A stretch of 64,000 nucleotides of DNA from Haliovirga abyssi (lineage in GTDB: Bacteria; Fusobacteriota; Fusobacteriia; Fusobacteriales; Haliovirgaceae). Under the pieces are notes generated by a model. That model saw only the letters and a program-made list of their open reading frames with translations, had not been told where the DNA came from and did no database searches. How positions within the stretch are numbered: position 1 is the first letter of the stretch; every line of letters begins with the position of its first letter. The stretch spans positions 2,352,637-2,416,636 of the forward strand of contig NZ_AP027059.1 in assembly GCF_030295325.1 (NCBI RefSeq), given 5' to 3'. The position numbers were made by a program, and so were the translations under genes. Below, in pieces: positions 33,205 to 55,657 of the stretch.

Positions 33205-33290
33205 AATAAAAGCTCCTTTTTTTTAACAGCTTAAAAACTCTTCATCTATTTTATAATAAAATTTTAGAACAATATTTTTTAAACATTCTT

Positions 33291-33316
33291 TAGGAATGGC
33301 TTAAAAATAACATTCC
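33291..33316. repeat. GGAATGGCTTAAAAA repeat, copy 1
   Basis: TAGGAATGGCTTAAAAATAA followed by CATTCC, so the copy can also fold on itself. Related copies lie at 39375-39395 and, reversed, at 62681-62698. Confidence 0.5.
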
Positions 33317-33365
33317 TATTTTGTTTTAAAATACGCAGTGATTCAAGCGTTTTTATAACAAAATT

Positions 33366-34364
33366 TTAAACATTCTTTAATACTTTTTTATAAATACTTT
33401 TTAATTTTTCTCCTATTATTTTTAAATCTCTTTCTTCTGCTGTTTTTCTTCCATTTTCAACTATATTTTTTATCTTATCTTCATCTATCTCACTTATTAT
33501 TTTTATAAATTCATCTATATTTTTACCTTTAAAAGCATTTTTATTATTATTTAACCATTTTTCATATACAGGAATATCTCTTACAATTACAGGTGTTTTC
33601 ATTGATAATGCTTCTAATACTACGATTCCTTCATTTTCTTCATATGTAGGAAAAAAGAAAGCTTTTGCTTCTGAATAAGCACCTAAAATTATTTCATTTG
33701 AAACATATCCTGGAAACTTCACATTTTCAGGTGGATTTTTCATTAATTTCTGTACATCTCTTGGTAAAAGTGATGCCATTTTAGCTCCAAACCATATAAA
33801 TTGATAATCTGGTAATTTTTTTGCCACTTCACAAAAATCAAATATCCCTTTTCTTCTAAATGGCAACCCTACACATATAATAAGCGGTTTATTTAATGGA
33901 TATTCTTCTTTAAACTTATCTGCTAATTCTCTATTTTTTATAAATTTGTTTGTATCCACTCCATTTGATACTACATCTATATTTTTATCTATACCATAAC
34001 TTTTTATTAAATTTTTTGTATATTCACTTGGAGATATTAAAGAATCTGCTTGTGAATATAATTTTATTAATCTTTTTTTTATAAAAGGTGATATCATATT
34101 ACTTAATACAAAGCTATTTCTAAAATCTTCAAATGTTGTATGGGTATGATATATCACAGGAATTCCACTTTTTTTAGACTTCTTTAATATTTTATCTGAG
34201 CCTGGACCTATTGTATTTATATGAACTACATCATATTTTTCATTTTCATCTGTTGTAAATTCAACACCTGCTTGTGTTAATGCTTCTTTTTGATGAGTTA
34301 ACGCTCTTCCAACGCCTGATTTATTAAATAAACTTTTACCTTCTGAATATAATAATACTTTCAC
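33366..34364 (-). CDS. Glycosyltransferase family 4 (GT-B), possibly a lipid glucosyltransferase
   Basis: A 332-residue cytoplasmic or membrane-associated GT-B enzyme. Seen are the N-terminal acceptor domain with SGVGRALTHQKEAL, HTHTTFEDF, DSLISPSEYTKNLI and the donor-binding EENEGIVVLEAL (E-x7-E type motif). The overall pattern resembles the GT4 enzymes that add glucose to diacylglycerol or monoglucosyl lipid, but the acceptor cannot be fixed from sequence. It is apparently a single gene, flanked by repeat-bearing spacers. Confidence 0.85.
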   Translation of the reverse strand: MKVLLYSEGKSLFNKSGVGRALTHQKEALTQAGVEFTTDENEKYDVVHINTIGPGSDKILKKSKKSGIPVIYHTHTTFEDFRNSFVLSNMISPFIKKRLIKLYSQADSLISPSEYTKNLIKSYGIDKNIDVVSNGVDTNKFIKNRELADKFKEEYPLNKPLIICVGLPFRRKGIFDFCEVAKKLPDYQFIWFGAKMASLLPRDVQKLMKNPPENVKFPGYVSNEIILGAYSEAKAFFFPTYEENEGIVVLEALSMKTPVIVRDIPVYEKWLNNNKNAFKGKNIDEFIKIISEIDEDKIKNIVENGRKTAEERDLKIIGEKLKSIYKKVLKNV

Positions 34365-34456
34365 TTTTCCTCCTAAGTTATATATTTGTTCATTTTATTA
34401 TACTCTTTATAATGGTTTTTTTCAAGATTTAATTCTTGTCTTTGATGATATACAAC

Positions 34457-34511
34457 AAAATAGAACTATAAAAATCAATAATGGTATGATTGATTTTTAT
34501 AGTTCTATTTT
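34457..34511. other. 23-bp perfect inverted repeat (long hairpin)
   Basis: AAAATAGAACTATAAAAATC(AAT) at 34457-34479 and its exact reverse complement at 34489-34511, with a 9-base loop. It directly follows the stop of the jetD relic on the minus strand. It could be a terminator, though the tail is poor in T on that strand, or the remains of a mobile element. The whole 34365-34893 spacer holds this hairpin, the relic, a palindromic element and one tiny frame. Confidence 0.7.
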
Positions 34512-34614
34512 ATAATTTTTTTATATAATTCTCTTTATTATATTGAACTTTAAAATAATTAAAAATTTCTATAAATACAACTGGATTATCTAGTATAAAA
34601 TCTGATTTGAATAG
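34510..34614 (-). pseudogene. Relic of a second jetD-like gene with internal deletion
   Basis: A frame between two stops translates with FILDNPVVFIEIFNYFKVQ then YN, matching residues 291-313 of the intact JetD-like protein at 42282 (LIIVENPAVFIEIFNYFKVE). It then jumps directly to KENYIKKL and a stop, which matches JetD residues 375-382 (RENYIKNL). About 62 codons between are missing. DNA similarity to 42658-42720 is also evident. No start or other parts remain, so this is a decayed fragment. Confidence 0.8.
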
Positions 34615-34656
34615 TTAATTTTTGTTAAAATTATTGAAATTAGCATTAGATTATTA

Positions 34657-34762
34657 AACTCCCAAATGGTAGTTTTCTAAAAACCACTACATATAGTTTC
34701 ATAAAACCTTTTGAACACTACATGTAGCGGTATGAAGAAAACTAAATACTTTTTTGTGGGTC
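34657..34762. mobile_element. MITE-like imperfect palindrome
   Basis: The ends are ACTCCCAAATGGTAGTTTTCT (left) and, read on the other strand, GACCCACAAAAAAGTATTTAG (right), followed inward by ACCACTACATATAGT and ACCGCTACATGTAGT. The 106-base unit is thus an imperfect dyad with no coding capacity. One similar end occurs alone at 55599-55628. This suggests a non-autonomous element; no target duplication is visible by eye. Confidence 0.55.
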
Positions 34763-34831
34763 AATCGTTATATAATATATAATGAATAGACTTATTAATT
34801 TGTGATGAATAGGGCTATCTTCTAAATCCAT
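34742..34831 (-). CDS. Tiny frame after the RND gene, possibly truncated by the palindromic element
   Basis: 29 codons beginning MDLEDSPIHHKLISLF, with a strong GAGGGGGAAGTT site before the ATG. The last codons run into the right end of the MITE-like palindrome, so this may be the start of a gene cut by the insertion. No family is recognised. Confidence 0.25.
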   Translation of the reverse strand: MDLEDSPIHHKLISLFIIYYITIDPQKSI

Positions 34832-34893
34832 AACTTCCCCCTCAAATTTTGATACTCTAAATTCGAACTGTTACTTTCCTTAATAGCTTATCC

Positions 34894-37302
34894 TTATTTA
34901 TCAAAAGCTTTGAATTTTTTTATCATAAAAGGTGTTAAAAAATAATCTGTAAACAAAGCAAAACTTAGACCACATATCACAGTAATTCCCAAATTGACAT
35001 ACATTTTCACAGGTGAAGAAATAAACATACCATATGTAAATATCAAAATCACTGTTGTAAGAGTAATTGCTTTTCCTATATCAAGAAATGTATTTTTTAT
35101 CGCTATATCATACTCCCCTGTTTTTTCATAGTTAAATTTCATCTGATTAATAAAATGAATCGTATCATCAACTGAAATACCAATAATCATAGGCATAATC
35201 GTAACAGTCATAAAATCAAGAGGAAAATCAAAGTAACCCATAACTCCACCGATAACAACCAGTGGCAATACATTTGGAATCATCCCGATTAATCCAACTT
35301 TTATGCTGCCAAAAACTATCATTAACAGTACAGCTATAACTCCAATTGCAACAAATAATGATATTAATTGTCCTTTCACTAGGTATTGTGACATTTTTGC
35401 AAACTGAGTAGCTCCTCCTGTAAATTCCGGTTTCATATCTGGAAAATATTCTCTTACTTTTTTTGTTATTAAGTCATACTCATTCATAAATTCTTTTGAC
35501 TTAAAATCTGACATTTCAACTTGAATTCTAAAATATGAAGATTTATCATCACTTTTTTCAAGAGTTTTCACTCCTTTTTCAAAAATATCGAAACCTAAAT
35601 CATCTACTTCTTCAGCGTAATTTATCCAACTTCTTGCTTCATCTCCACCTGAAGTATCATACAGAAACATTAGCTGAGAAATTGTTTCTTTACTATCTGG
35701 TATTTTGTAATATTCTTTGTTACCATCATTTACTACCTGGTTTAACTCCTTTAAAATGTCAATAAAAGATGTAGTTCGTTTTGTCAAAGGCTGCTTGTTT
35801 ATATACTTAATAATTTTTTCCATATTTTTCATATTTTTAGGATTTTTTAAACTGTCAAAATCTTTAAATGGTAAAGTTATATCATATGAATATATTGTCC
35901 CAATCTTTGAGTTTCCTGTTTCATATGCCTCTTTTACATACGGAACTTTTAGCCCCATTGTTTTCATCATATCAACATCTACATTTAGCTTTGTAATACC
36001 AAATCCAATTATTCCAAGAAAAATTGTCATAACAAAAAGTATTTTTGTAATATTTTTTTGTCCCCATTCACCAACATTCATAAAAAAAATATCTAATTTA
36101 CTAAATTCCTTGATATTTTTATTTTTCTTCACTTTTCCAAAACTTAAAAATATCGGCAATAATATAAGTGTATAAATATATACTGTTGAAATTACAGCTC
36201 CGCATGTATAGCCGATCCATCTGATTGTCATTACATTTGTAAAAATCATTGAAAGAAATGCAACTATTGTTGTTAGCGCTGTAAATAATAATGGCCAGCC
36301 TGTATGTTCTATTGCATAAATTGCAGCTTTTTTTCTATCTCTTGTTATTGCCAATCCTCTTTTAAATGTATTAAATATATGAATAGAGTACCCAACGGAA
36401 ACACCTATTCCTAAATACAGCGGTAGTGTAACAGACATCATCTGTATTTTTATTCCAAGAAGTCCCATAAATCCAAACGGAATTAAAATACTTAGTATCA
36501 TTGTAGCTGACGGGATTATAACTCCACGAAATGACCTTAAGGTTATCATCAGAAGAATTATTGAGGCTATAAGTGCAAGTATTATTCTCTGACCCATCTC
36601 CTTTCCTAAAAACTCTGTCTCTTCAAGTTCGAGAATAGGCGCTCCTGTTGCTCTGATTTTTATTCCTTTTTTATTAAACTCTGGCATTTTTAGAATATTT
36701 TTTATTTCTTTAGCTACCATCGCTGATGGTGGATTCCTTATATCAAAATCATCTGGAAATGGTTTTAATTTTAGTATTAACCATGTTTGTTTTGAATCAT
36801 CAGATACAATTTTATTAACAAGATTTTTCTTGCTAAGTACTTTTTTCCTAATCATTTCCAATTTCTCACTCTTTTTAGGAATAACGCTTGGCACGATATC
36901 AATTATTTCCATCTTGTCATTTGAGCCTTGAATATACTCAAATTCTGTAAGTGATATAACCGGATTCTGCGAAGAAACATAAGGTACTTTTTCTACTAGA
37001 ACATCCCCTAAATTTCGTATTACTTTTAACGTTTCATAATTAAATACATCTTTTGATTCAATTAAAAAAGCAACATATTCATTATTTCCAAACCTTTCTT
37101 CAAACTTTTCCTTTTGCTGTAAAAAAGGGTCTTTTTTATCAAACCAGCTGTCTGGAGAAACATCCATTGACATTTTGCCTAGACCGAAAAAAGCTATCAT
37201 CGTGAGTAAAGTTATTATTCCCAGAAAAATGAATCTTTTTTTTATTAGTTTTTCTCCAAACTTTTTAAACCCTTTATTTATCTTTGATATATTTATTCCC
37301 AT
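34894..37302 (-). CDS. RND-superfamily (MMPL-type) exporter
   Basis: An 802-residue protein with the two-fold RND layout: one N-terminal helix, a large periplasmic domain, five to six helices, then the same again. MMPL/HAE2-type features include RFGNNEYVAFLIES, LGIGVSVGYSIHIFNTF and the second-half counterpart IIGISVDDTIHFINQM with the acidic pair in the membrane that carries proton flow. It probably moves a lipid or hydrophobic compound. It is the third gene of an operon with a beta-barrel protein and a LolA-like protein (gaps 10 and 11 bases), an arrangement known for COG1033 exporters. Confidence 0.9.
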   Translation of the reverse strand: MGINISKINKGFKKFGEKLIKKRFIFLGIITLLTMIAFFGLGKMSMDVSPDSWFDKKDPFLQQKEKFEERFGNNEYVAFLIESKDVFNYETLKVIRNLGDVLVEKVPYVSSQNPVISLTEFEYIQGSNDKMEIIDIVPSVIPKKSEKLEMIRKKVLSKKNLVNKIVSDDSKQTWLILKLKPFPDDFDIRNPPSAMVAKEIKNILKMPEFNKKGIKIRATGAPILELEETEFLGKEMGQRIILALIASIILLMITLRSFRGVIIPSATMILSILIPFGFMGLLGIKIQMMSVTLPLYLGIGVSVGYSIHIFNTFKRGLAITRDRKKAAIYAIEHTGWPLLFTALTTIVAFLSMIFTNVMTIRWIGYTCGAVISTVYIYTLILLPIFLSFGKVKKNKNIKEFSKLDIFFMNVGEWGQKNITKILFVMTIFLGIIGFGITKLNVDVDMMKTMGLKVPYVKEAYETGNSKIGTIYSYDITLPFKDFDSLKNPKNMKNMEKIIKYINKQPLTKRTTSFIDILKELNQVVNDGNKEYYKIPDSKETISQLMFLYDTSGGDEARSWINYAEEVDDLGFDIFEKGVKTLEKSDDKSSYFRIQVEMSDFKSKEFMNEYDLITKKVREYFPDMKPEFTGGATQFAKMSQYLVKGQLISLFVAIGVIAVLLMIVFGSIKVGLIGMIPNVLPLVVIGGVMGYFDFPLDFMTVTIMPMIIGISVDDTIHFINQMKFNYEKTGEYDIAIKNTFLDIGKAITLTTVILIFTYGMFISSPVKMYVNLGITVICGLSFALFTDYFLTPFMIKKFKAFDK

Positions 37303-37312
37303 TTTTTCCCCC

Positions 37313-38491
37313 TTAAAAATTATAAGTTGTTTTTAAAGACAACTTTGTATTTTCTTGTTTTATTGAAATCCCTGTTTCAAAGTTAATATTATCATTTATT
37401 GAATATTTTACCATCGGTGTTATCTCCCATACTTCAGATGATAGATTAATATAACCTGACATAGACATTGTCAGCAGGTCATTAAATATTGTTTTGGAAA
37501 AAGATGATATTAAAAAAGGTTCCTCTTTTTTTCTTGAAATAGAGTCGTTATAATTAAATATTCTATCCCCTCCAAATGCCAAACTACCTCCAAGGCTATT
37601 CCCAAAATTAAATTCACATACAAGAGCATAACCTATATAATCTTTTTCAATTGCTCCATTACTACCATTTAAACCTACTTTTTCAAAACTTTTTTCAAAA
37701 AAATACCCAGTTTCTCCTCTAAGCACCATACTGCCAATTTTTTTTGAAAAATCCATTCCTAGCATTTTCTCTTTACCAAAAGTTACTTTCTTATTAATTT
37801 TATCATAAATAGGGAAATCATTTATCCCTTTAAATGCCATCAAGCTGATTTCAGTTGTACCAAGGTATTTTTTATATTTCACACCTACTTCTATGTTTTT
37901 TAAATTCACTGAAGGAGTTATGACATTGTATTTCTGATTATCAATTTCTAAATTACTCACTGGTGAAACAGGAATTATAATAAAATTCAATTCAGAACTA
38001 TTTTTTAATATATCTACTTTTATTGCATTAACTGGAACTTTTAAATCATTGTATTCGAAACTATATCCAGAAACAAGATTTACAGGATTTATTATATCAA
38101 CAATCTGTGCACCATCTACAACTCCCCATTCTATTATTTGCCTACCTATTCTTATTGAAAAAACATCATTAACATAATCGTAATACAGTTCTTTAAGATC
38201 AAGTGAAGGATTTTTCCTATTATCAAACAAAGTTTCCAATGAGATAAAAAGGTCCTTTTTTTTCAATTCCGAATAAAGCTTTAATTCTGAAAGATTTATT
38301 TTTCCAGATTTTTCTATTTCAACAATATTTGTATTTCTTAGCGAACCACTTATTTCCCAATTTGATTTTTCTTCATTATATCCTGACTGCGAACTATTAA
38401 TATCCAAACCTATAAAATCAAAGTTTTCCTCTCCAAAAGATATTAATGCAAAACTAAAAAACAAAATTGCTACTATTAATTTTTTTTTCAA
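37313..38491 (-). CDS. Outer-membrane beta-barrel protein of the RND operon
   Basis: A 392-residue protein with a clear signal peptide (MKKKLIVAILFFSFALISFG) and then repeated amphipathic strands, for example LSELKLYSELKKKDLFISLET, a DFVFSIRIGRQIIEWG-like porin motif and an aromatic last strand ending in Phe (TTYNF). DUF1302-type barrels encoded next to RND exporters look like this. It is probably the outer-membrane partner or a porin linked to the exporter. Co-transcribed with the genes on both sides. Confidence 0.75.
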   Translation of the reverse strand: MKKKLIVAILFFSFALISFGEENFDFIGLDINSSQSGYNEEKSNWEISGSLRNTNIVEIEKSGKINLSELKLYSELKKKDLFISLETLFDNRKNPSLDLKELYYDYVNDVFSIRIGRQIIEWGVVDGAQIVDIINPVNLVSGYSFEYNDLKVPVNAIKVDILKNSSELNFIIIPVSPVSNLEIDNQKYNVITPSVNLKNIEVGVKYKKYLGTTEISLMAFKGINDFPIYDKINKKVTFGKEKMLGMDFSKKIGSMVLRGETGYFFEKSFEKVGLNGSNGAIEKDYIGYALVCEFNFGNSLGGSLAFGGDRIFNYNDSISRKKEEPFLISSFSKTIFNDLLTMSMSGYINLSSEVWEITPMVKYSINDNINFETGISIKQENTKLSLKTTYNF

Positions 38492-38502
38492 TTTTTCCTC
38501 CT

Positions 38503-39324
38503 TTATTTTCTATAAAAAGTTGAAGGTAAAAAGAGCTTTTTATCCATTTGTTTAGGATAATTTATCTCTAAAAGAAATATATAAGTAGAATGTCCTGTCT
38601 GGACATTTTTCATGGCCATATCCTTTATATACCAGTATTTTCCACTTTTATTTATACTGCTTCCACCTTCTTTTGATCTCAAGTTCTTTGTAGTCAACAC
38701 TTTAAATAGTTTATTATCCCTATCATAATATTCTACTTTTGCTATTACCATATTATCTTTTCTAATCCAAAAAATTCTTTTACTATAAATTTCATATTTA
38801 TTCAATTGTTTTGGAATAGATTCTATTATGTAACATTCCTTACCATCTATAATACTCTCTTTGGAATTAACAAAATTAAAATTATCCTTCTGTAACTCTA
38901 ATTCCCCCAGGTCATCCAGTGTAAAATCTGAACCCATAAAGCTAGCATTCTTGTCATTTCTTGAAGAGGATATCTGTCTTGGAGCCCCTTTTTTTATTCC
39001 CGGCAAAGATAACCATGTAATATCCTCCTTATTATTAACATCATAATCCCACATTAACATAGAAGTTCCTTTTACTTCAGCAGGAGCTATGAATTTAAAA
39101 CAGCTTTCACTTTTATTTTCCCCATCTATTTTTTTAGAATAGCCAATAAATTCTCTCACTCTTTTTCTATTTTTCTTATCAACTAAAATCATTTTTTGCC
39201 TCGAATATTGGAATTCTGCTGCTTCTTTTCCTTTGGCTTTTTCCATAACTTCATAAGCTGACATTCCAAAAACAGTAGTTCCTAATATTCCCAACAAAGT
39301 TAAATAAAATAATACTTTCCTCAT
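38503..39324 (-). CDS. LolA-like periplasmic outer-membrane lipoprotein-sorting protein
   Basis: A 273-residue exported protein with signal peptide ending VFGMSA. The mature part reads as the COG2834 family: KMILVDKKNRKRVREFIGYSKK, GTSMLMWDYD, WLSLPGIKKGAPRQISSS, FMGSDFTLDDLG and RIFWIRKDNMVIAKVEYYD. Such proteins carry lipids or lipoproteins through the periplasm and are typical partners of COG1033 RND exporters. First gene of the operon; TTAGGAGGG precedes the ATG. No regulator gene is adjacent. Confidence 0.85.
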   Translation of the reverse strand: MRKVLFYLTLLGILGTTVFGMSAYEVMEKAKGKEAAEFQYSRQKMILVDKKNRKRVREFIGYSKKIDGENKSESCFKFIAPAEVKGTSMLMWDYDVNNKEDITWLSLPGIKKGAPRQISSSRNDKNASFMGSDFTLDDLGELELQKDNFNFVNSKESIIDGKECYIIESIPKQLNKYEIYSKRIFWIRKDNMVIAKVEYYDRDNKLFKVLTTKNLRSKEGGSSINKSGKYWYIKDMAMKNVQTGHSTYIFLLEINYPKQMDKKLFLPSTFYRK

Positions 39325-39480: not shown

Positions 39481-39847
39481 TTAATCTCGACTTATAATTT
39501 CTTTATAGGCTTTTGTAGCTATTGACATCCCAAATATTGCAAAAATAAATAAAATTAGTATTTGAATTGTCAAATCTCTAGTAAAAACAAATGATCCTTG
39601 CTGAGTAAACATTGTCCGAAGCCCTGCCACTAGATAGGTCATTGGATTTATTTTGACAATTATTCCAAATATTAATGGTAGTTTTTCTGTAGCATACAAA
39701 ACATTACTAAAAAATAGAAGTGGCATCTGTAGCATAAATATCACCATATAGTATGCACCATTATTTTGGGCTTTTGATGCAAAATAAAGGGCAATTCCAG
39801 AAAAACCAAATCCAAACAATATTATTAATACTTAATATATTATTCAT
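39481..39847 (-). pseudogene. Broken ABC-2 type permease gene
   Basis: The C-terminal ~112 residues of an ABC-2 permease are intact in frame (MLQMPLLFFSNVLYATEKLP, NPMTYLVAGLRTMF, IATKAYKEIISRD). There is no ATG in that frame. A proper start with AAGGAAGGTGTATTA before it lies at 39847, but it is in another frame and only about ten codons long before the shift. Roughly 130 N-terminal residues are therefore deleted. No ATPase partner gene is present. It was presumably once the second gene after the EFR1 gene, 13 bases away. Confidence 0.8.
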
Positions 39848-42281: not shown

Positions 42282-43595
42282 CTAATCAATTTTTAATATA
42301 TTCATCACATCTTTAATTATAACATTAATAAATTTTTCTTGAAAAGATTTTCCACCAACTTCTTTTAAAATTTCTGATATTTTTTTTAACTCTAAATCTT
42401 CAATTTTATTTAATTTTTTCATACTTGTATCTTTTATCTTCTCATCTGATAAATTTTTTATGTAATTTTCTCTGTTATATCCAATTAATTTAATATTTTT
42501 ATTATAACGTTTTTTTAATTTATCTGCTATAATCAATCCTTCTGGATCTAAATCTCCAGAATATATAAGTTTTATGTCGCTTTTAACTGCTAAATCCATT
42601 AAAAATAGTGCTGATGATTTTATATTACCATATCCACAAATCATAGGAATAATAATATTATATTCAACTTTAAAATAGTTAAATATCTCTATAAATACAG
42701 CTGGATTCTCAACTATAATCAAATAATTATAGTTAGAAATAATTTTTTTTAATTTTGTAATTCCTGTCATAGGCATAATAAAATATTCGCCATTATTATA
42801 AAATTCTCTCCAGCCAGTGTGCCTTCCTTTTGCTATTTCTGCTTCTAATCCTGATATTGCCACGCTATTTGAAATGTCATCTGTAATTATACCTGCTTCA
42901 ATATACATTTCAATTCTCTCTTCCGCATTTGTTGGATATTTCTTATTTAAATAATATGATATTCCATATAAAAGTAACTTTCCAGCAAAATTTTTATTGT
43001 CAAAAAAGTGTGGGTCTTTTGATATATCTGATGCAAATATTGCTAAAAGTTTATACTCTTTTTTGATTATAGGTAAATTATTTAGACCTTTTATTATTCT
43101 TTCTATTATAATTTCAAATTCATTAAGATTATTTTCTTTTTCAAATTTATTATATTCTTTTATTAAAATATTATTCCCTTTATTTCCTTCAATTAAAAAT
43201 TTTAAAAATTCTCCGCCTACTGTTTCTGCATACCATTCATATAAGTCGACAAAAAACTTTTCTCTTTGTTTTTCATAATTTTCCATTTTATCTTTTTTGT
43301 ATATAATATTTTCATTAAAATAAATTTCTAAAGCCAATTTAAAATTATCATTTGAAAAGTTCATATTATTAAAACTTTTTATTATATTTTCTATTAAAAT
43401 TGTTTTTTTACCTATCTCGTAATTTTCTCCTGTAATTTCAGAAAGAGCTGATTTCTCAGCTCTTGACAGTTTTTCTTTTTTTATTTTTCCTAAAAATTTT
43501 CCAAATGACTCATATTTATTTTTAATAATTATTAAAATTTTTCTTAAATCTTTTTTAGATTTTAAATATTTCACTAATTCCTGCTCTTTAGTCAT
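42282..43595 (-). CDS. jetD: Wadjet JetD-like protein (TIGR02679/DUF2399, Toprim-like nuclease)
   Basis: A 437-residue protein, last gene of the four-gene SMC defence operon. Its C-terminal third is Toprim-like: a Glu in YLIIVENPAVF (Glu296), then PMICGYGNIKSSALFLMDL and the acidic pair in YSGDLDPEGLIIADKL (Asp348, Asp350). These residues would bind metal for DNA cleavage. In studied Wadjet systems JetD cuts plasmid DNA that the SMC complex has extruded. The N-terminal part is helical and variable. It follows jetC by 38 bases. A fragment of a second copy lies at 34510-34614. Confidence 0.88.
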   Translation of the reverse strand: MTKEQELVKYLKSKKDLRKILIIIKNKYESFGKFLGKIKKEKLSRAEKSALSEITGENYEIGKKTILIENIIKSFNNMNFSNDNFKLALEIYFNENIIYKKDKMENYEKQREKFFVDLYEWYAETVGGEFLKFLIEGNKGNNILIKEYNKFEKENNLNEFEIIIERIIKGLNNLPIIKKEYKLLAIFASDISKDPHFFDNKNFAGKLLLYGISYYLNKKYPTNAEERIEMYIEAGIITDDISNSVAISGLEAEIAKGRHTGWREFYNNGEYFIMPMTGITKLKKIISNYNYLIIVENPAVFIEIFNYFKVEYNIIIPMICGYGNIKSSALFLMDLAVKSDIKLIYSGDLDPEGLIIADKLKKRYNKNIKLIGYNRENYIKNLSDEKIKDTSMKKLNKIEDLELKKISEILKEVGGKSFQEKFINVIIKDVMNILKID

Positions 43596-43633
43596 ATTAT
43601 TCTCCTAATTTTTTCTTCTCAACTCTTTATCCT

Positions 43634-46600
43634 CTAAAACATCTTCATATTCCCGCTTTTATTATCGTATAATTCTTTCCCCACTACAGCTGTTCTTTTA
43701 TTTCCATTCCATTTATATCTAAATACTGTTACTACATCAGAATTATTTGGTCTATATAATTCAGCTATTGCAAGATTTGGTATTGTTCCATAATCTCCCC
43801 ATAAAACCTGAGAATTAACTATAAAATCAAATTTCATATTAACCATAAATTCAAACATTACACTAATATTTCTTTCATCTACTCCTGCAAAAGCTTCATC
43901 AAGAGATATTATTTTTGGCGCATCTTTTGAAGCATTGTCATATCTGGCACTTACTGCTGCGAACAGCGGAACATACATTGTCATTGCTTTTTCTCCGCCA
44001 CTAAATTTATAAAATTCATTTTGAGTTAATTGTTTTTTTAGTCCCTCTCCTCTTTTTACTGATAATTTAAATTCATACCACTCTCTATAATCCAGCAACT
44101 CTTTCATAATTGTATGAAATGATTTAATATTATCCTCTTTCTCCATCTCTTTTTTAGCTTCTGCTATTTTTGATTTAAAATGAGATACTATTTTCGTTAT
44201 ATCTTCTGTTCTTCTTGTAAATTCATCTTTTCTTAATAATTTAACAAGCTCACTTGAATTCATCTGTTCCTCATTATCTGGTTTTCTTCCAGCCCAACTT
44301 AATCCAAGTCTTATTGTATTAGTATTCATACTCTCCATTAATTTATTCATATTAAAAACCCAAATTTCGCTTTTTTCAATTTTTTCTGTAATTCTTTTAC
44401 TAATTGTTTTTATTAATATCTCTTCAAAAAGCTCTCTCTCTTTATCTGCTAATAGTTTTTCATCTCTTAATATATTTTCTTCTATATCTGATAATATATG
44501 TATAAGATTTGTCTTTTCTCCTCTTATTTTTCCTATTACATCAACTCTTTTTAATTCTCCTAAAACTTCATTAATAACTCCATTTATAGGCTCATTAAAT
44601 CTATATTCCATATTAAGTCTATAATCTGATAAATAGTTTTTTGATATTAAAAACTTATTATTAAGGTCATTAGAATACTCTATCCCTTTATCTATATCAA
44701 TATTTCCTGATAATCTTTGTGATAATGCCTTTAATTCACTTTTATTGCTAATATCCAGCTCATTAACTACATACGCTAAATTTACCTCTTCATATAATCC
44801 TTTTTTCCAAGACGATTCTAACTCTTTTAAATTTTCGCTTTCTTGCTCTATTTTTATTAAATTTTCTTTTAAATTTTTTATTTCTGATTCTATTGAGCTT
44901 ATTCTCATTATAGTTTCATTAAAATTTTTCTCATTTTCTTTACGTTTTTCTTTTAATTGTGCCAATTGCTCTACTAAATTTTCTATTCCTTCTTGTTCTG
45001 CTCTTTTTTCTAACTCTTCCAATATTTGCTTTTGTGTATCTAACGCTTTTTTAATTTTATTTAAATTTAATTTTATATCTTCAATTTCATCTTCTACATT
45101 TTCAATATTTTCTATTAATCTATCTATTCTTTGCCCAAAATCTAAAAATCTTTTATATTTATTTTCTATTTCCAAAATATTATATCTGTATTTTTCAATT
45201 AAATCCAAAGCTTCTGTAAATGATTCTAAATCTAAATTAATTTTTGTTCTTACTCTTAACTCGTTTACTTTTTCATTTAAACTATTTTTTCTCTGTCTAG
45301 CAATTAATTCTTCTTTCTCCTTTTCCTCTATTTGGTAAAATTTCATCTGTTTTTCTCTTTTTAATATATTTATATTTTCCATTATTTCTTCTATTTGAAT
45401 AAAATCAGGTATATTTTCAAACTCTTTTTTTAACATCTCTTTTCTATTTTTTAGATTAGATAATTTTTCTTCTATTTTTGCTTTTTCTAAATTTAAACTC
45501 TCAATCTTTTCTTCAAGCAATTTTATTAGCTCTTTTTTATAATTTTCTCTTGCACTTATTCCTATAAATTTTGCTTTATTAATTTTTGTTGTTTTTCCTT
45601 CAATTGGACCATAACTATATTTTCCCTCTATACCAATAAAAAATTCTCCACTTTTTTGATTAACAGGGATAGATTTTAATATTTTTTCAATATACTCTTT
45701 CTCTTCTTCGTTATATTTAGCTTCTACTTTTAAATAATTAAATAAATTTTTATTTTCTCTGTTTTCTTCAGATATATTTTTATCATCTCTATTTTTATTA
45801 TACGTCTTTAATAATTTTATCCCCTCTTCAATATCCAATTTTGGCATTTCATTATCAAATAAAATTATTGAGCTAATTATATTTGTATCAATTAATATCT
45901 CTTCAATTATCCCTTTTGTTTCCTCAGATATATTTTCTCTAAAATCAACTGTTTTCCAAAACATATCATATTTTATTTTTAGACTATCCAACTTTTTACA
46001 ATATTTTTTTTCTTTTTCTTCAATTTCATATATAGGGTCTTTTTTTGATTTCCACTCATCTATTTCATCACTTTTTTCTTGAATTTTTTCATTTAAATTT
46101 TCAATATGAAACCTGTTTTCAATAACCTCTTTTTCTATATTATTACTACATCTATTAAAAATGTTTTTATATTTATATTTAATATCCAAAATATATTTTT
46201 TTTCATCACAACTATTTACTGCTATAATTATATCTTCTAAATCTTTTTCTTGGAAATTCAATTCTTTAGTTTCACTTGCATATTTTTCTAATTTCTCTAA
46301 ATATATCTCTTTAGAATTATCAGATTTCTTTTCTTCATTTACAATCTCTTCCTCAATTTTTCTTAATTCATCTTTTAAATCATCTACTATTTTTACTATT
46401 TTATCATATTCTTCACAGCTTTTTTTATAATTTTCTATTATAATTTTTCCATTCCTAAAAAAATCTTTGAAAATATCTGTCTCTTTTTTTAATAATTCAA
46501 AATTATAATCTTTATCCAATTTTGAAAAAAACTCTTTTCTAAAATTTATATCTTCTGAAAAATTAATTTCATTAGCCCTCTCTCTGTTTTCATCTATTAA

Positions 46601-47758
46601 GCTGTTTAATTGACTATATAAAACCTCTTTATCATTTTTAAGAGAATTAATTTCAGAATATTTTATATTTCTATCCTCTTCTCTTCTTTCGAGTCTTCTG
46701 TTTTCTGTTTCAAAATCCTCTTTTTTCTCTTTTACATATGATTTTATATCTAAAATTTCTTTTTGTAATTGATAAAATTCGCTTTTTTCATATGTCTCTA
46801 TTAAATGATTTATACTCTCTTTTTCAGCTTCAAGTTTATCTCTTTTTGTTATTGACTCATTTTTCTGATTATTAATATTTAAAATATATTTTTCCGTTCT
46901 TTTTAATTCTGATATATTTTTGTCTAAGTTTTCTTTAGCTTGAATATATTTGTTTAATTTTTTTAATAAAATATATGAATTATATTTATCGTAAGCTCTT
47001 TTTATTTTTTCAGATTCTCGTTTTGCATTTTTTAAAGATTTTAAATTATCTTGAAGTTCATCCATATTTTCTACTGCTTCTGTTAAAGGTCTTAATTCAT
47101 CATCAGATATAGGCTCTAATGAACCTTTTAATATTTCATAAGTTGCACTTGGTTTGAAATTTTTAGATAATTTTGGACTTCTAAGATTTATTAATAGATT
47201 AACTAAATCTTCATATTCTTTTACAGTTTCAAATCCAAATATATATCTATTAACCATAGCCACATAATCGCTTTGTTTATCAACAACTGTCCCGCCATTT
47301 CCAATTGCATTTTTTAGCTCCATTTTAGACAATGGAACTTTATTTACTTTCTCTTTATATAAATAAAAATCTCGTCCAATTCTTCTTCCATCATCTATAC
47401 AAAAATACCATGTCCTTGTTGCAGTTCCACGTTTTGCTCTAATTCCCATACCAAATGAAATATACTCACCTGTTTTCTTCTTTAACTCCATATAAAGATA
47501 ACCTGTATTTTCATCATACTCTGTTCCTTCCGGAAGTATATATGAATCTATTCTTCTTGCTCTTGAACCAAAAGGATCTAATCTTTCAGGTCTTACACTT
47601 CCGTCAAGAAGCAACGGTATAAAACTCTGCATAGTTACTGACTTTCCAGAACCATTAGAACCTCTTAATAACAATTTTCCATCTTCTAATGTAAACTCTT
47701 CATCATCATAATACCAAAAATTTATCAACCCAAATCTCTTTATTTGCCATCTATTCAT
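43634..47758 (-). CDS. jetC: Wadjet JetC-like SMC/SbcC-type ATPase (TIGR02680)
   Basis: A 1374-residue SMC-like ATPase. The N-terminus RFGLINFWYYDDEEF leads to the Walker A LLLRGSNGSGKS (33-40) and SRARRIDSYILPEG. Long coiled coils rich in Glu/Lys/Leu fill about 230-1150, with a hinge-like middle near 640-760. The C-terminal head has the ABC signature KFSGGEKAM (FSGGEK 1252-1257) and Walker B KIISLDEAFAGVDERN (LDEA 1286-1289). The length matches the TIGR02680 group (about 1350). As motor subunit it should load on and extrude circular DNA. Its start overlaps jetB by 8 bases. Confidence 0.93.
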   Translation of the reverse strand: MNRWQIKRFGLINFWYYDDEEFTLEDGKLLLRGSNGSGKSVTMQSFIPLLLDGSVRPERLDPFGSRARRIDSYILPEGTEYDENTGYLYMELKKKTGEYISFGMGIRAKRGTATRTWYFCIDDGRRIGRDFYLYKEKVNKVPLSKMELKNAIGNGGTVVDKQSDYVAMVNRYIFGFETVKEYEDLVNLLINLRSPKLSKNFKPSATYEILKGSLEPISDDELRPLTEAVENMDELQDNLKSLKNAKRESEKIKRAYDKYNSYILLKKLNKYIQAKENLDKNISELKRTEKYILNINNQKNESITKRDKLEAEKESINHLIETYEKSEFYQLQKEILDIKSYVKEKKEDFETENRRLERREEDRNIKYSEINSLKNDKEVLYSQLNSLIDENRERANEINFSEDINFRKEFFSKLDKDYNFELLKKETDIFKDFFRNGKIIIENYKKSCEEYDKIVKIVDDLKDELRKIEEEIVNEEKKSDNSKEIYLEKLEKYASETKELNFQEKDLEDIIIAVNSCDEKKYILDIKYKYKNIFNRCSNNIEKEVIENRFHIENLNEKIQEKSDEIDEWKSKKDPIYEIEEKEKKYCKKLDSLKIKYDMFWKTVDFRENISEETKGIIEEILIDTNIISSIILFDNEMPKLDIEEGIKLLKTYNKNRDDKNISEENRENKNLFNYLKVEAKYNEEEKEYIEKILKSIPVNQKSGEFFIGIEGKYSYGPIEGKTTKINKAKFIGISARENYKKELIKLLEEKIESLNLEKAKIEEKLSNLKNRKEMLKKEFENIPDFIQIEEIMENINILKREKQMKFYQIEEKEKEELIARQRKNSLNEKVNELRVRTKINLDLESFTEALDLIEKYRYNILEIENKYKRFLDFGQRIDRLIENIENVEDEIEDIKLNLNKIKKALDTQKQILEELEKRAEQEGIENLVEQLAQLKEKRKENEKNFNETIMRISSIESEIKNLKENLIKIEQESENLKELESSWKKGLYEEVNLAYVVNELDISNKSELKALSQRLSGNIDIDKGIEYSNDLNNKFLISKNYLSDYRLNMEYRFNEPINGVINEVLGELKRVDVIGKIRGEKTNLIHILSDIEENILRDEKLLADKERELFEEILIKTISKRITEKIEKSEIWVFNMNKLMESMNTNTIRLGLSWAGRKPDNEEQMNSSELVKLLRKDEFTRRTEDITKIVSHFKSKIAEAKKEMEKEDNIKSFHTIMKELLDYREWYEFKLSVKRGEGLKKQLTQNEFYKFSGGEKAMTMYVPLFAAVSARYDNASKDAPKIISLDEAFAGVDERNISVMFEFMVNMKFDFIVNSQVLWGDYGTIPNLAIAELYRPNNSDVVTVFRYKWNGNKRTAVVGKELYDNKSGNMKMF

Positions 47759-48899
47759 TCTCTTTCTCCTTATAAAAATCTTTTGGATAATTCCCTATAT
47801 ATTTAGATATTGCCGGTAATAATTCTATCTCGCCTTTATTCTCATTATTATTGTTCAAAAGATTGAATCCTTTCATATATTTAATTAAATCTTTTGTTAT
47901 CCCTTCAACACTCATATTTCTATATTCACTACTCCATCCAGAACTATATTTTTCTTTACATAATTTTACTATTTCTAAAAATTTATCATAACTAATAATA
48001 ATTCTATCTCTTTCATTATACGAAATTTCTCCTACATTTACTTTATTAATTATTTCTCTACTAACCAATAAAACTATATCTGAAATAGCTTTTGCTCCAG
48101 GAAAAACATCTTTATAATTATAGCTGTTTTCAATTTCAATCATTGCATAATTTTTTGTCAAATTAAATCCAGCTTCGAGATATTTTTCAAATTCAGATGC
48201 AATATTATGAGTTTGTTTTTTCATATAATCAAAATCTGATTCATTCTCATTATCTCTTGTTACAACTGCATTTATCAATAAATTTTTATATACTCTTTGA
48301 GCTCTTGCAGTTCCTCTATCTCTACTTTCATCTTGCCAAATCTCATTTTCGAAATCACTTATATCTTTATATTCAGAAATATCTCTATTAAAATTTCTTA
48401 TAAAATATCTGGATATTCCAGTAGATTCATATAAAACTTGCGCATTCAAATCGTTTTTAAAACTATCTTCTTCTCCAAAATTTATTTTAACTAATTTCAT
48501 CTCAACTAAAAATTTTAAAACTTTAACAAAACTCTTTCTTAATGAATAACTATTCCAATCAATATAAAATTCTATTGGATAATTTAACTCCACAAATTCT
48601 GAAATATCAGAAAGTATAAATTGGTCACCTCTGTCTTTATCTTCTAAAAATGCCAATACCAAAGAGAACATTATATATTGTTCAGTTTGATTAAAATCTG
48701 GAATTCCCATCCAATCTTCTGCTCTCTCTGGTATTTTTTCTAATTTAATTAAATGTTTATTTCTTATTACTGACAATCCACATTTTTCTTCTAAAAATGG
48801 TTTAAAAGTAGCTATTTTTTCTTTTATTTCAAAATATCTATCTTTATCATCTTCTTTTAATATCCAAAATTTTTCCAATAATATCTCAATCTCTTTCAT
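47751..48899 (-). CDS. jetB: Wadjet JetB-like protein (TIGR02678/DUF2398)
   Basis: A 382-residue protein of the MukE-like winged-helix type that binds the kleisin of the SMC complex. It has the features expected of TIGR02678: ILKEDDKDRYFEIKEK, RKSFVKVLKFLVEMKLVKIN as a winged helix, and ARAQRVYKNLLINAVV. The length (about 375-400) and its place between jetA and jetC support the call. The start codon shares a base with the jetA stop (TAATG), so the two are translationally coupled. Family assignment is from pattern and context. Confidence 0.85.
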   Translation of the reverse strand: MKEIEILLEKFWILKEDDKDRYFEIKEKIATFKPFLEEKCGLSVIRNKHLIKLEKIPERAEDWMGIPDFNQTEQYIMFSLVLAFLEDKDRGDQFILSDISEFVELNYPIEFYIDWNSYSLRKSFVKVLKFLVEMKLVKINFGEEDSFKNDLNAQVLYESTGISRYFIRNFNRDISEYKDISDFENEIWQDESRDRGTARAQRVYKNLLINAVVTRDNENESDFDYMKKQTHNIASEFEKYLEAGFNLTKNYAMIEIENSYNYKDVFPGAKAISDIVLLVSREIINKVNVGEISYNERDRIIISYDKFLEIVKLCKEKYSSGWSSEYRNMSVEGITKDLIKYMKGFNLLNNNNENKGEIELLPAISKYIGNYPKDFYKEKENE

Positions 48900-50428
48900 T
48901 AGCTCTCACCTACAATTTTTATAATAATATCTGGCATATAAAATATCCCATCAATACAATTTAATCTGATTTGATTTTTATCATTCATTAAAATTTTATA
49001 TGAACTGTTATCTTCATTTTTTCTAATTGGAAATACCCTATATTTAATATTTTCAACTATTTCAAACTCTTTATTCCCGGGAGATTCAATTCCCCTTACT
49101 ATCCATCTAAGCAAAGTTTTTCTAACATTTTCAGATATATTATCCAAATCAGAAATTTTTATCATTTCACTTTTTACAAGCTCTAATATCTCTTGTTTTT
49201 CTTTTTCTAATTCTCGCTGTTTTTCTCTAATTATTTCAGCTTTTCTATGTGTTTTATCAATAATAGCTATTGATTGTCTTTTTTCTCTATATTTTCTTGT
49301 TCGTGGTTTTATCTCTAATTCTATTGGCTCTGTTTCAAATGCTCCTATATTTTTATCTGTAACTTCTCCTCTAATTTCACCTTTAAAATGTTTGGTATTA
49401 AAAGCTCCAAAAATCATTGCTGAAAGTTTATGAGCTTCATTAATAGAATTACAATTTGAAAACAGAGAAGCTATTTTTAAGCACTCCTCTTTTCTACTTG
49501 AAATTTGTCTACTACTTTCCGATATATGTAAAGCTATTCTTACTATTTTTCTTATAATTTCATTTGTCCTGTCATATAACATCTCCATCTCACTTTTTCT
49601 ATTTTCATTCCCCAAAAACCAAAGTAAAACAGCTTCCCATTTTCCAGTTAAATCCTCAAAAATATTTTCTTCTGTTATATCAGGAGTTAAAATCATAATT
49701 TTCTTTTTTTCTAATGAAATTTTCCTAAATATCTCTTCTATTTTTTCTTTATCTATATCTTTCAAAATTTTTACTATAGATAATCCATATTTTTGTAATC
49801 CTTTGATGAAATTCCTCAAATAATCAATAAGATTATCTTTATATATTATAAATTGAGTTGTATTAAGTAGCTCTTCAAATTTAAAACTATTAAGTTTCAT
49901 TATATAGCTTTTATAATTATTATTTAATCTTTCAAAATCAGATATAATATTACTCCACAAAGAATTTATATCGGTAACTTTATTAATCTCTTTTTTATCC
50001 AATTCCTCAAGACTATCTCTTAATCTCTCCATAAGAGATGGATCTAATTCTGCTTCTTGAAAAACTATTTTTTCTAAATCTTCTGACACAAGTTTTTCTA
50101 TAGTTATAGCTTTTTCTGTAATTTGATAAATATATTTTTTATTTTTAAATTCTTCTGGAGTGGTTGCTTTAGCTGTATCTTGAATTCCTATTATATTGCC
50201 CCATTCCATTAATTTATTTATATCCTGCTCACACATATCAGAACTATAATCTTTAAATTGCTCGCTTTCTCTCATAATTTTTACAATCTCATCTTTATAT
50301 AAAGTCCGATTTAATTGGTTATATTTTTCATAAAAAATCCTAATTATCGCTCTATATCTCCTTACATTTTCTGCATTCAGATATTTCACTTCAGTTATAG
50401 GTTTTAAATGTTTATTAAAAAATTCCAT
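48899..50428 (-). CDS. jetA: Wadjet JetA-like kleisin protein (TIGR02677/DUF2397)
   Basis: A 509-residue protein. The N-terminus VKYLNAENVRRYRAIIRIF and LMEWGNIIGIQDTAKATTPEEF match the TIGR02677 pattern of the kleisin-like subunit of these SMC systems. A helical region follows, with ADI-like charged stretches and RKYREKRQSIAIIDKTHRKAE before a C-terminal winged-helix-like part. It should bridge the two JetC heads. It is 69 bases downstream of the third AAA/nuclease gene, with no terminator evident, so co-transcription with those genes is possible. AAAGGGGATAAG precedes the ATG. Confidence 0.87.
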   Translation of the reverse strand: MEFFNKHLKPITEVKYLNAENVRRYRAIIRIFYEKYNQLNRTLYKDEIVKIMRESEQFKDYSSDMCEQDINKLMEWGNIIGIQDTAKATTPEEFKNKKYIYQITEKAITIEKLVSEDLEKIVFQEAELDPSLMERLRDSLEELDKKEINKVTDINSLWSNIISDFERLNNNYKSYIMKLNSFKFEELLNTTQFIIYKDNLIDYLRNFIKGLQKYGLSIVKILKDIDKEKIEEIFRKISLEKKKIMILTPDITEENIFEDLTGKWEAVLLWFLGNENRKSEMEMLYDRTNEIIRKIVRIALHISESSRQISSRKEECLKIASLFSNCNSINEAHKLSAMIFGAFNTKHFKGEIRGEVTDKNIGAFETEPIELEIKPRTRKYREKRQSIAIIDKTHRKAEIIREKQRELEKEKQEILELVKSEMIKISDLDNISENVRKTLLRWIVRGIESPGNKEFEIVENIKYRVFPIRKNEDNSSYKILMNDKNQIRLNCIDGIFYMPDIIIKIVGES

Positions 50429-50497: not shown

Positions 50498-52048
50498 TCA
50501 CACAACTATCTCAAATATCTCTTTCCCTTCCACTATAACTCTATCCTTAATATACTTTTTCCCCTTATTAAAATTATAAAACACCATATACCCCTTATCT
50601 AAATTTTGTGCCTCCAAATATCCACACAACTGCTCCCTACCCTCTTGTTCATACTGACCACCACGCCATATCTTTAACTCTATTACATATTTTTTCATAT
50701 TGTAAGTTACAACTATATCCATTCTATTGGACTCTCTTGTTTCTGATTCCACAAAATAAAATCCCGTTCCATTTATTATTGGCTTTAAAAATGCTAAAAA
50801 TAGAAGCCGTCCTTCTCGCTCTACAAATTTTTCATCTATTTTTCTATATTCTGCTTTCATTAGTTCTTGAAATTTACTTAATACTAATTCCATATCCAAA
50901 TCGCCATTATCATTTATAAATTTCCCCATATATTTATAATCAAGAACAGGCCCTTTTTTCATTTCTCTCATTGCTATCATATAGTTATATAAAAGTATCT
51001 CAAATATCTTATTATTAATTATTAATTTATGTTTTTCATTTTCTCTAAATATTCCATACATTATTCCTAAATTATGAGCTTGTAAATTATACTGTATTTC
51101 CTCTCCATCAAGGACTATTCTCTCTATTAGATTATATAATTCTTTATATCTATTTATATTTTTTATTACATCATCAAATAATGTATTATTACTATTTAAT
51201 ATTATTTTTATAGCTTCTTCTAACCCTTTTTCACTAAAATCTCTATCTAATTTTTCATCTATTACTTTGCATAATTTACTTACTAAAAACGGATACCCAT
51301 TTGTATACATATATATTTTTTCAGAAATATTTTTTATATCCATTCCTGTCTTTGCATCTACTTCATATTCAATTAACATTGTTGATATCTCTTCTGAATT
51401 AAAGCTCATATCTATATCAAAATCTAACGCTATATTCCACGGACTATTTAATGTCCTAGTTTCATCTGGTCTTAATTTCAATTTCAAATTTTTTACATCA
51501 TGTACTCCTGCTAATATTACTGTATTAAATGTATAATCTTTTCCCATATTTCTTCTTAAATATTTATCTCTAAACATTCCTATAAAATTTAAGAATAATT
51601 GATTATTACTGCTTTTATCTACTTCATCTATCATTAATATTACTTTTTTATTTGCTTCTAATATAAAGTCTGTTATAAATTCATCTAACTCTTCGAAATT
51701 TGTTACCCTATTATTTTCATCAATAAATTTTATTAATTTTGTTTCTTTTTTTAATTTTAACTCTTTTCTTAATAGTTTTATAAATACTTTTGATAAATTT
51801 TTTTCATTTTCAAAAGGAACTTCTCCTATCCCTTCAAAACTTATTGATATTAATAAATATTCCTTATTATCTCTCAATTTTCTTTCTAATAAATACATTG
51901 TTGTTGTCTTCCCATATTGTCTTGGACGATTTATTGTAAAATATTTTCTTTTTTCTATTAATTTTATTATTTCATTTAATTTAGATGTTGTATCTACCAT
52001 ATAATGTTCTTCAGGAATACAAGTTCCTGTTATATTAAATTCTTTCAT
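50498..52048 (-). CDS. AAA-ATPase / PD-(D/E)XK nuclease protein, paralogue 3
   Basis: A 516-residue protein of the AAA-ATPase-like plus PDDEXK_9 (DUF1703) type. Walker A is RPRQYGKTT (41-49), Walker B VILMIDEVD (136-144); a winged-helix-like middle follows, and the C-terminus has the nuclease core with Asp444, Glu457-x-Lys459 (VIELK) and the late Gln in REQLCGYL. Compared with paralogues 1 and 2, residues 1-284 and 384-516 are almost the same, while 285-378 differ most. It is nearest to jetA, in the same direction. The biological role of the family is not established; phage or toxin-like defence roles are guesses. Confidence 0.88.
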   Translation of the reverse strand: MKEFNITGTCIPEEHYMVDTTSKLNEIIKLIEKRKYFTINRPRQYGKTTTMYLLERKLRDNKEYLLISISFEGIGEVPFENEKNLSKVFIKLLRKELKLKKETKLIKFIDENNRVTNFEELDEFITDFILEANKKVILMIDEVDKSSNNQLFLNFIGMFRDKYLRRNMGKDYTFNTVILAGVHDVKNLKLKLRPDETRTLNSPWNIALDFDIDMSFNSEEISTMLIEYEVDAKTGMDIKNISEKIYMYTNGYPFLVSKLCKVIDEKLDRDFSEKGLEEAIKIILNSNNTLFDDVIKNINRYKELYNLIERIVLDGEEIQYNLQAHNLGIMYGIFRENEKHKLIINNKIFEILLYNYMIAMREMKKGPVLDYKYMGKFINDNGDLDMELVLSKFQELMKAEYRKIDEKFVEREGRLLFLAFLKPIINGTGFYFVESETRESNRMDIVVTYNMKKYVIELKIWRGGQYEQEGREQLCGYLEAQNLDKGYMVFYNFNKGKKYIKDRVIVEGKEIFEIVV

Positions 52049-52245: not shown

Positions 52246-53799
52246 TCACACAACTATCTCAAATATCTCTTTTCCTTCTACTATAACTCTATCCTTAATA
52301 TACTTTTTTCCCTTATTAAAATTATAAAACACCATATACCCCTTATCTAAATTTTGTGCCTCCAAATATCCACACAACTGCTCCCTACCCTCTTGTTCAT
52401 ACTGCCCACCACGCCATATCTTTAACTCTATTACATATTTTTTCATATTATATGTAACAACTATATCCATTCTATTTGACTCTCTTGTTTCTGATTCTAC
52501 AAAATAAAATCCCGTTCCATTTATTATTGGCTTTAAAAATGCTAAAAATAGAAGCCGTCCTTCTCGCTCTATAAATTTTTCATCTATTTTTCTATATTCT
52601 GCTTTCATTAGTTCTTGAAATTTACTTAATACCAATTCCATATCTAAATTACCATTATCATCTATAAATTTTGTCCTAAATTCATAAGTTAAAACTACTC
52701 CTTTTTCTCTCTCTCTTTTTGCTATCATATGATTGTAAAGTAATATTTCAAATATTTTATTGTCTATCTCTACTTTTTTATTTTTTCCTCTTATTATTCC
52801 ATACATTTTGCCTAATGAAGCCATTATATCTGTATGCACATAATCAACTTTCTCATTTCCTAATATAACTTTTTCTATAAATTTATAAAACTCTCTATTA
52901 TTTTCTATATTTTTTATTATATCATCAAATAGTGTATTTGGGGTTTCCAATATTATTTTTATAGCTTCTTCTAACCCTTTTTCTGTAAAATCTCTATCTA
53001 ATTTTTCATCTATTACTTTGCATAATTTACTTACTAAAAATGGATACCCATTTGTATACATATATATTTTTTCTGAAATGTTTTTTATATCCATACCTGT
53101 TTTCGCATTTTTCTCATAATCTATTAACATTGTTGATATCTCTTCTGGACTAAAGCTCATATCTATATCAAAATCTACCGCTATATTCCACGGACTATTT
53201 AAAGTTCTGTTTTCATCTGGTCGCAATTTCAACTTTAAATTTTTTACATCATGTACTCCTGCTAATATTACTGTATTAAATGTATAATCTTTTCCCATAT
53301 TTCTTCTTAAATATTTATCTCTAAACATTCCTATAAAATTTAAGAATAGTTGATTATTACTGCTTTTATCTACTTCATCTATCATTAATATTACTTTTTT
53401 ATTTGCTTCTAATATAAATTCTGTTATAAATTCATCTAACTCTTCGAAATTTGTTACCCTATTATTTTCATCAATAAATTTTATTAATTTTGTTTCTTTT
53501 TTTAATTTTAACTCTTTTCTTAATAGTTTTATAAATACTTTTGATAAATTTTTTTCATTTTCAAAAGGAACTTCTCCTATCCCTTCAAAACTTATTGATA
53601 TTAATAAATATTCTTTATTATTTTTCAATTTTTCTTCTAATAGATACATTGTTGTTGTCTTCCCATATTGTCTTGGACGATTTATTGTGAAATATTTTCT
53701 TTTTTCTATTAATTTTATTATTTCATTCAATTTAGATGTTGTATCTACCATATAGTGTTCTTCAGGAATACAAGTCCCTGTTATATTAAATTCTTTCAT
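52246..53799 (-). CDS. AAA-ATPase / PD-(D/E)XK nuclease protein, paralogue 2
   Basis: A 517-residue member of the same family with the same Walker A, Walker B and nuclease motifs as its neighbours. Its central block (about 285-378) is the most divergent of the three: it reads ETPNTLFDDIIKNIENNREF, VHTDIMASLGKMYGIIRG and REREKGVVLTYEF, where the others share NSNNTLFDDVIKNINRYKEL, AHxLGIxYGIFREN and MKKGxVLDYKYMGKF. The start is at 53799 because GGAGGTTGTAAAA stands before this ATG; the longer frame from 53826 has none. Spacers of 189 and 197 bases separate it from the flanking copies. Confidence 0.88.
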   Translation of the reverse strand: MKEFNITGTCIPEEHYMVDTTSKLNEIIKLIEKRKYFTINRPRQYGKTTTMYLLEEKLKNNKEYLLISISFEGIGEVPFENEKNLSKVFIKLLRKELKLKKETKLIKFIDENNRVTNFEELDEFITEFILEANKKVILMIDEVDKSSNNQLFLNFIGMFRDKYLRRNMGKDYTFNTVILAGVHDVKNLKLKLRPDENRTLNSPWNIAVDFDIDMSFSPEEISTMLIDYEKNAKTGMDIKNISEKIYMYTNGYPFLVSKLCKVIDEKLDRDFTEKGLEEAIKIILETPNTLFDDIIKNIENNREFYKFIEKVILGNEKVDYVHTDIMASLGKMYGIIRGKNKKVEIDNKIFEILLYNHMIAKREREKGVVLTYEFRTKFIDDNGNLDMELVLSKFQELMKAEYRKIDEKFIEREGRLLFLAFLKPIINGTGFYFVESETRESNRMDIVVTYNMKKYVIELKIWRGGQYEQEGREQLCGYLEAQNLDKGYMVFYNFNKGKKYIKDRVIVEGKEIFEIVV

Positions 53800-53989
53800 T
53801 TTTACAACCTCCGCTTGTTTTATCATTTATCTTTAAATTTATAATTGCTTTTCTATTATTATTATATCTTCTACTCCATTATTTAGCATATTTGGAATCT
53901 ACTCCTACAAAAAAATTTTTTGAATTATCACTATATCTTCTATGCTTCTATCTTCTCATTGTTAATTTTTCATTATCAATTATCTCTTA

Positions 53990-55540: not shown

Positions 55541-55598
55541 TTTTACAACCTCCATTAGTTTGCCTTGTTTCAATTTCTTTTTTATTATATTATGATTA

Positions 55599-55628
55599 GA
55601 CCCCCAAAATGTAGCTTTCTAAAATCAT
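55599..55628. repeat. Single end of the palindromic MITE-like element
   Basis: GACCCCCAAAATGTAGCTTTCT followed by AAAATCAT, matching both ends of the palindrome at 34657-34762 (CCCAAATGGTAGTTTTCTAAAA). Only one end is present here. Confidence 0.5.
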
Positions 55629-55657
55629 ATTATTAAGAGCTCAATTAACTTAATAGT

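Follow-up and report, generated by a model that had tools for sequence, protein, structure and literature searches.

A probable non-functional remnant of a partial jetD copy lies 8 kb from the type II Wadjet operon of Haliovirga abyssi

The JetD protein of Wadjet systems is described as a toprim-domain nuclease whose conserved active-site residues are essential (PMC12287153). A keyword search of the literature brought up no evident published account of a decayed Wadjet locus. The 64,000-nucleotide stretch of Haliovirga abyssi DNA that we analysed (the window) carries an intact Wadjet operon at 42282-50428, in which jetA, jetB, jetC and jetD follow one another in that order on one strand. Its products match the PADLOC JetB2, JetC2 and JetD2 models and the DUF2397, DUF2398 and DUF3323/DUF2399 families, which identifies the operon as a type II Wadjet system.

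42282-43595, minus strand: intact jetD (type II Wadjet), the paralogue of the relic described below (PADLOC JetD2, 1.1e-111; DUF3323 and DUF2399)
43634-50428, minus strand: intact jetC, jetB and jetA, in an operon with jetD (PADLOC JetC2, E 0, and JetB2, 3.6e-131; JetA DUF2397, 1.3e-112)

The resident JetD has no near neighbors among the sequences that we compared. The nearest genomes available for comparison belong to the same order, and the nearest JetD within the phylum is ~32% identical. An alignment scan returned 266 relatives, mostly from Bacillota, with identities of at most 37% among those listed. Single-protein scans of genome and viral contig collections produced no closer relatives, a plasmid scan produced two, both distant, and no solved structure matching by sequence was found. 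Directly upstream of the operon, two near-identical AAA-ATPase-like genes stand in tandem (50498-52048 and 52246-53826), and the C-terminus of their products is of the PD-(D/E)XK type.

Eight kilobases from the intact jetD, between two unrelated genes, lies a span of ~85-90 bp that is related to it and that has the same orientation as jetD, the last gene of the operon. Six-frame translation and codon alignment show two jetD-like pieces within one stop-to-stop frame, as the first-pass annotation of this DNA had described.

34510-34614, minus strand: stop-to-stop frame containing both relic segments
34536-34598, minus strand: relic segment 1, equivalent to jetD codons 293/294-313
34513-34536, minus strand: relic segment 2, equivalent to jetD codons 375-382, in frame straight after segment 1
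34537-34543, minus strand: deletion or switch junction, from sequence comparison

The frame translates as LFKSDFILDNPVVFIEIFNYFKVQYNKENYIKKL*. It ends after 34 codons at a TAA stop (34510-34512) and contains no ATG, GTG or TTG start codon; it is therefore not a gene. The gap between the two segments corresponds to jetD codons 314-374, which is 61 codons or 183 bp, and a 6-bp ATATAA at the junction is common to jetD codons 312-313 and 373-374. The internal deletion proposed in the first-pass annotation is thus present, at 61 rather than 62 codons. The end of its first piece (residue 313) and both limits of its second piece (375-382) likewise stand, while the first piece begins at residue 293/294 and not at 291.

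The similarity of segment 1 to jetD is clear at the DNA level. Positions 34536-34598 align without gaps to 42656-42718 of the intact gene (previously placed at 42658-42720), with 55 of 63 bases identical (87%) and a score of 78.8 bits. When the whole 2.7-Mb genome is searched with jetD, the runner-up scores 55.4 bits, a margin of 23 bits, and below the relic match there is a long tail of AT-rich noise. In local alignment the relic scores 90, whereas none of 1000 dinucleotide-preserving shuffles scored above 55. In a tblastn comparison of JetD with the intergenic region, residues 294-313 match with an E-value of 1e-9 and residues 371-388 match in the same frame with an E-value of 5e-4. We do not take BLAST E-values literally in this AT-rich genome because clear noise gets to 1e-7, and we rely rather on the 23-bit margin and on the shuffles. 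The similarity of the relic to jetD is above chance.

Segment 2 is shorter, and its score depends more on the test that is applied. It agrees with jetD from codon 375 onward at 20 of 24 bases, in frame. Taken alone, this score was equalled in 45 of 20,000 shuffles (p ~0.002), by one codon 8-mer among 6339 taken from other genes and by none of 2806 intergenic 24-mers, while gapped scoring against the entire jetD gives a p-value of 0.06. We accept segment 2 as real because it comes directly after segment 1, keeping both frame and order, with ATATAA on both sides of the gap. It could be argued that the whole likeness is an accident of AT-rich DNA, given the many weak jetD matches spread across the genome and the test-dependent values for segment 2. 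We give this explanation almost no credence, since segment 1 exceeds every other site in the genome, lies far above the shuffles and keeps its frame while carrying residues peculiar to the resident JetD; for segment 1, the genome-wide margin and the shuffles rule it out. The objection of AT-rich bias, which the first-pass annotation had itself named as the refuting outcome, is answered by how strongly the relic matches the resident jetD. When the translated relic is compared with only the broader JetD family, it gives the best match in the window besides jetD, but that match is weak (E 0.12).

The residues of the relic identify its closest relative. Five residues that are rare among 88 homologs (I302, F305, N306, Y307 and V310) are common to the relic and the resident JetD, as is an EYN insertion that is absent from 68-77 of the 88. 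The relic is therefore a paralogue of the resident jetD lineage rather than a piece of an unrelated Wadjet. The relic and the resident jetD share common descent, lie on the same strand and correspond in two collinear pieces joined in frame at ATATAA, which bears out the earlier description of a second, internally deleted piece of jetD.

Compared with a JetD protein, the relic is homologous to codons ~293-313 and to codons 375-382, a portion that takes in the beginning of the toprim-like domain (I-x-E/D-N-P), but it retains only ~28 of 437 codons and thus lacks the full N-terminal DUF3323 and C-terminal DUF2399 regions of a functional JetD. It has Asp where Glu (E296, of the ...ENP.VF motif) stands in all 88 homologs compared. 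The codons for the YSGDLDPEG motif (SGDxDPEG in general form), which is invariant in a small JetD alignment, fall within the missing 314-374. By analogy with the toprim family, E296 and the GDLD residues are presumably the active-site residues described for JetD. Above-chance homology to a functional gene is thus combined with disabling lesions, namely the missing start codon, the stop at 34510-34512, the 183-bp gap and the lost motif. In being short, AT-rich, frame-decayed and intergenic, and in having lost DNA at a short direct repeat, the relic resembles ordinary bacterial pseudogene fragments; no notable difference separates it from them, and it is just too short for gene callers. It is ordinary gene debris. 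The likely reading of these comparisons is that this lineage once carried a further copy of some part of its own jetD, and that 34513-34598 is what survives of it, without function.

The relic occupies a 529-bp intergenic interval (34365-34893) with the following neighbors.

33366-34364, minus strand: glycosyltransferase gene, bordering the interval
34425-34397, minus strand: good sigma-70-type promoter of the glycosyltransferase gene, TTGAAA-17-TATAAT
34457-34512, minus strand: near-perfect 25-bp hairpin directly beyond the relic (fold z-score -4.84; inverted repeat 91%)
34652-34764, no strand assigned: imperfect copy of a dispersed palindromic MITE-like repeat, with an imperfect 7-bp flanking duplication (ATTAGAT / GTTATAT)
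34894-37302, minus strand: MMPL-family transporter gene, bordering the interval

Transcription along the minus strand would meet the palindromic repeat copy, the relic, the hairpin and the glycosyltransferase promoter, in that order. The hairpin is the probable transcription end of the gene set at 34894-39324; a terminator scan that requires G+C did not call it. The relic thus sits in a probable 3' untranslated region before a strong hairpin, a position that might be thought to suit a small RNA, the coding of a tiny peptide or a role as donor in recombination with jetD. Nothing points directly to such a function and we consider it very improbable. The relic has no start codon and meets a stop after 34 codons, it is sense to jetD and hence would not pair as antisense with the operon's transcript, and an RNA family search gave nothing past a low-scoring hairpin match.

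Given that the palindromic repeat lies just 54 bp from the relic, we also considered whether the relic belongs to a dispersed repeat or came in with this element. The repeat has eight good chromosomal copies elsewhere (78-88% identity) and several partial copies on both contigs. Its consensus is ~115 bp with ends GATTAGACCCCCAAAAGG / GGTATTTAGTTTTC...GGGTCAATC, and its copies are flanked by what look like 7-bp target duplications (AAATTAT, ATACAAT and ATAATAT, for example). Although the relic shares its intergenic region with one copy, it is non-repetitive, has no terminal inverted repeats and has jetD as its sole relative, with no third copy in the genome. Furthermore, it lies outside the defined repeat ends and flanking duplication, and no jetD sequence adjoins the other repeat copies. 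A dispersed repeat as the carrier of the relic is therefore not supported, and we rate this origin as highly unlikely. The AAA-ATPase-like genes have one end of the same repeat close by, at 55589-55629 (95% over 41 bp).

A second dispersed intergenic repeat, of ~75 bp, is present at 33249-33291 and 33321-33378 in the window and in most of the 20-kb genome samples (L064-L080, for example L079:2243-2322). We sampled 57.6 kb of intergenic DNA from 444 kb of the genome for gene scraps like the relic. The other strong intergenic-to-gene matches in this sample came nearly all from the ~75-bp repeat, so the jetD relic is rare in this genome, and a genome-wide habit of scattering gene scraps is not borne out in the sample.

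The relic and the live jetD differ at 12 of 84 bases, and third codon positions hold eight of the 12 differences (counted by hand from the codon alignment). Over 28 codons the NG86 method gives a dN of 0.09 and a dS of 0.59, values that are very noisy at such length. The third-position excess has a p-value of 0.019 under no constraint and 0.076 if the live copy alone was constrained. At two positions the relic fits the JetD family better than the live gene does, with F293 (F in 56% of the 88 homologs) and K375 (K in 19%). These two residues suggest that change has occurred in both copies since their separation. The relic is not a recent copy, given the 12 differences and these two residues, which are commoner in the family than their counterparts in the live gene. 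Taken together, the dN/dS values and the third-position bias hint, short of proof, that for some time the relic copy functioned as a gene.

These observations bear on the earlier suggestion that either a second Wadjet system once existed here or part of jetD was copied. The first alternative holds that the relic is what remains of a complete second Wadjet operon (or a full tandem jetABCD) between the transporter and glycosyltransferase genes, otherwise deleted. The low dN relative to dS and the family-like residues 293 and 375 suggest a source jetD that still worked and had already diverged, and the relic is oriented like the operon, whose final gene is jetD. In addition, the DNA separating jetD from the relic has seen gene truncation, as a shortened ABC-2 permease gene at 39481-39819 shows. 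This gene, probably a pseudogene, matches only positions 140-209 of the 211 in its family model and has stops upstream and no adjoining ATPase gene.

The genome-wide searches argue against a lost system. The PADLOC JetD2 model matches the genome once, at 42282-43595, so there is no second full JetD, and JetA and JetB likewise have one genome match apiece and no further family members. Across the whole genome no jetA, jetB or jetC DNA fragments rise above background, and none of these three genes is found beside the relic. The flanks of the relic (34599-34893 and 34365-34470) are without similarity to jetA-D, its boundaries are sharp, and its intergenic region holds no more jetA-D pieces, including after removal of the MITE-like repeat. 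On this sequence evidence a complete second Wadjet system is not supported, and we regard it as improbable. A partial copy has more in its favour and takes most of the remaining probability.

For a partial copy, at least part of jetD would have been duplicated ~8 kb downstream on the same strand, and two routes agree equally with the sequence. By one route, a segmental duplication would have been followed by a 183-bp slippage deletion between the 6-bp ATATAA repeats. By another, a single repair event may have copied two nearby jetD patches, with a template switch at ATATAA; that microhomology-guided template switching stitched these patches in one step into a repair site 8 kb off is possible but rather doubtful. 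In either case the relic would later have drifted neutrally within the untranslated DNA that separates the transporter operon from its terminator hairpin, and it would have no present activity. Two points weigh against a partial copy, namely that only ~85 bp is involved and that the hint of constraint (dN/dS and third positions) counts against it, because a neutral partial copy would never have been a working gene.

Relics shorter than 100 bp that are missed by annotation can thus be found by careful reading. The jetD relic does not by itself demonstrate the loss of a second defence system; if it is true that related strains hold a full jetABCD at this site, then the relic would be one clear case of Wadjet loss. 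As it stands, the relic hints at rearrangement in the Wadjet region of this lineage.
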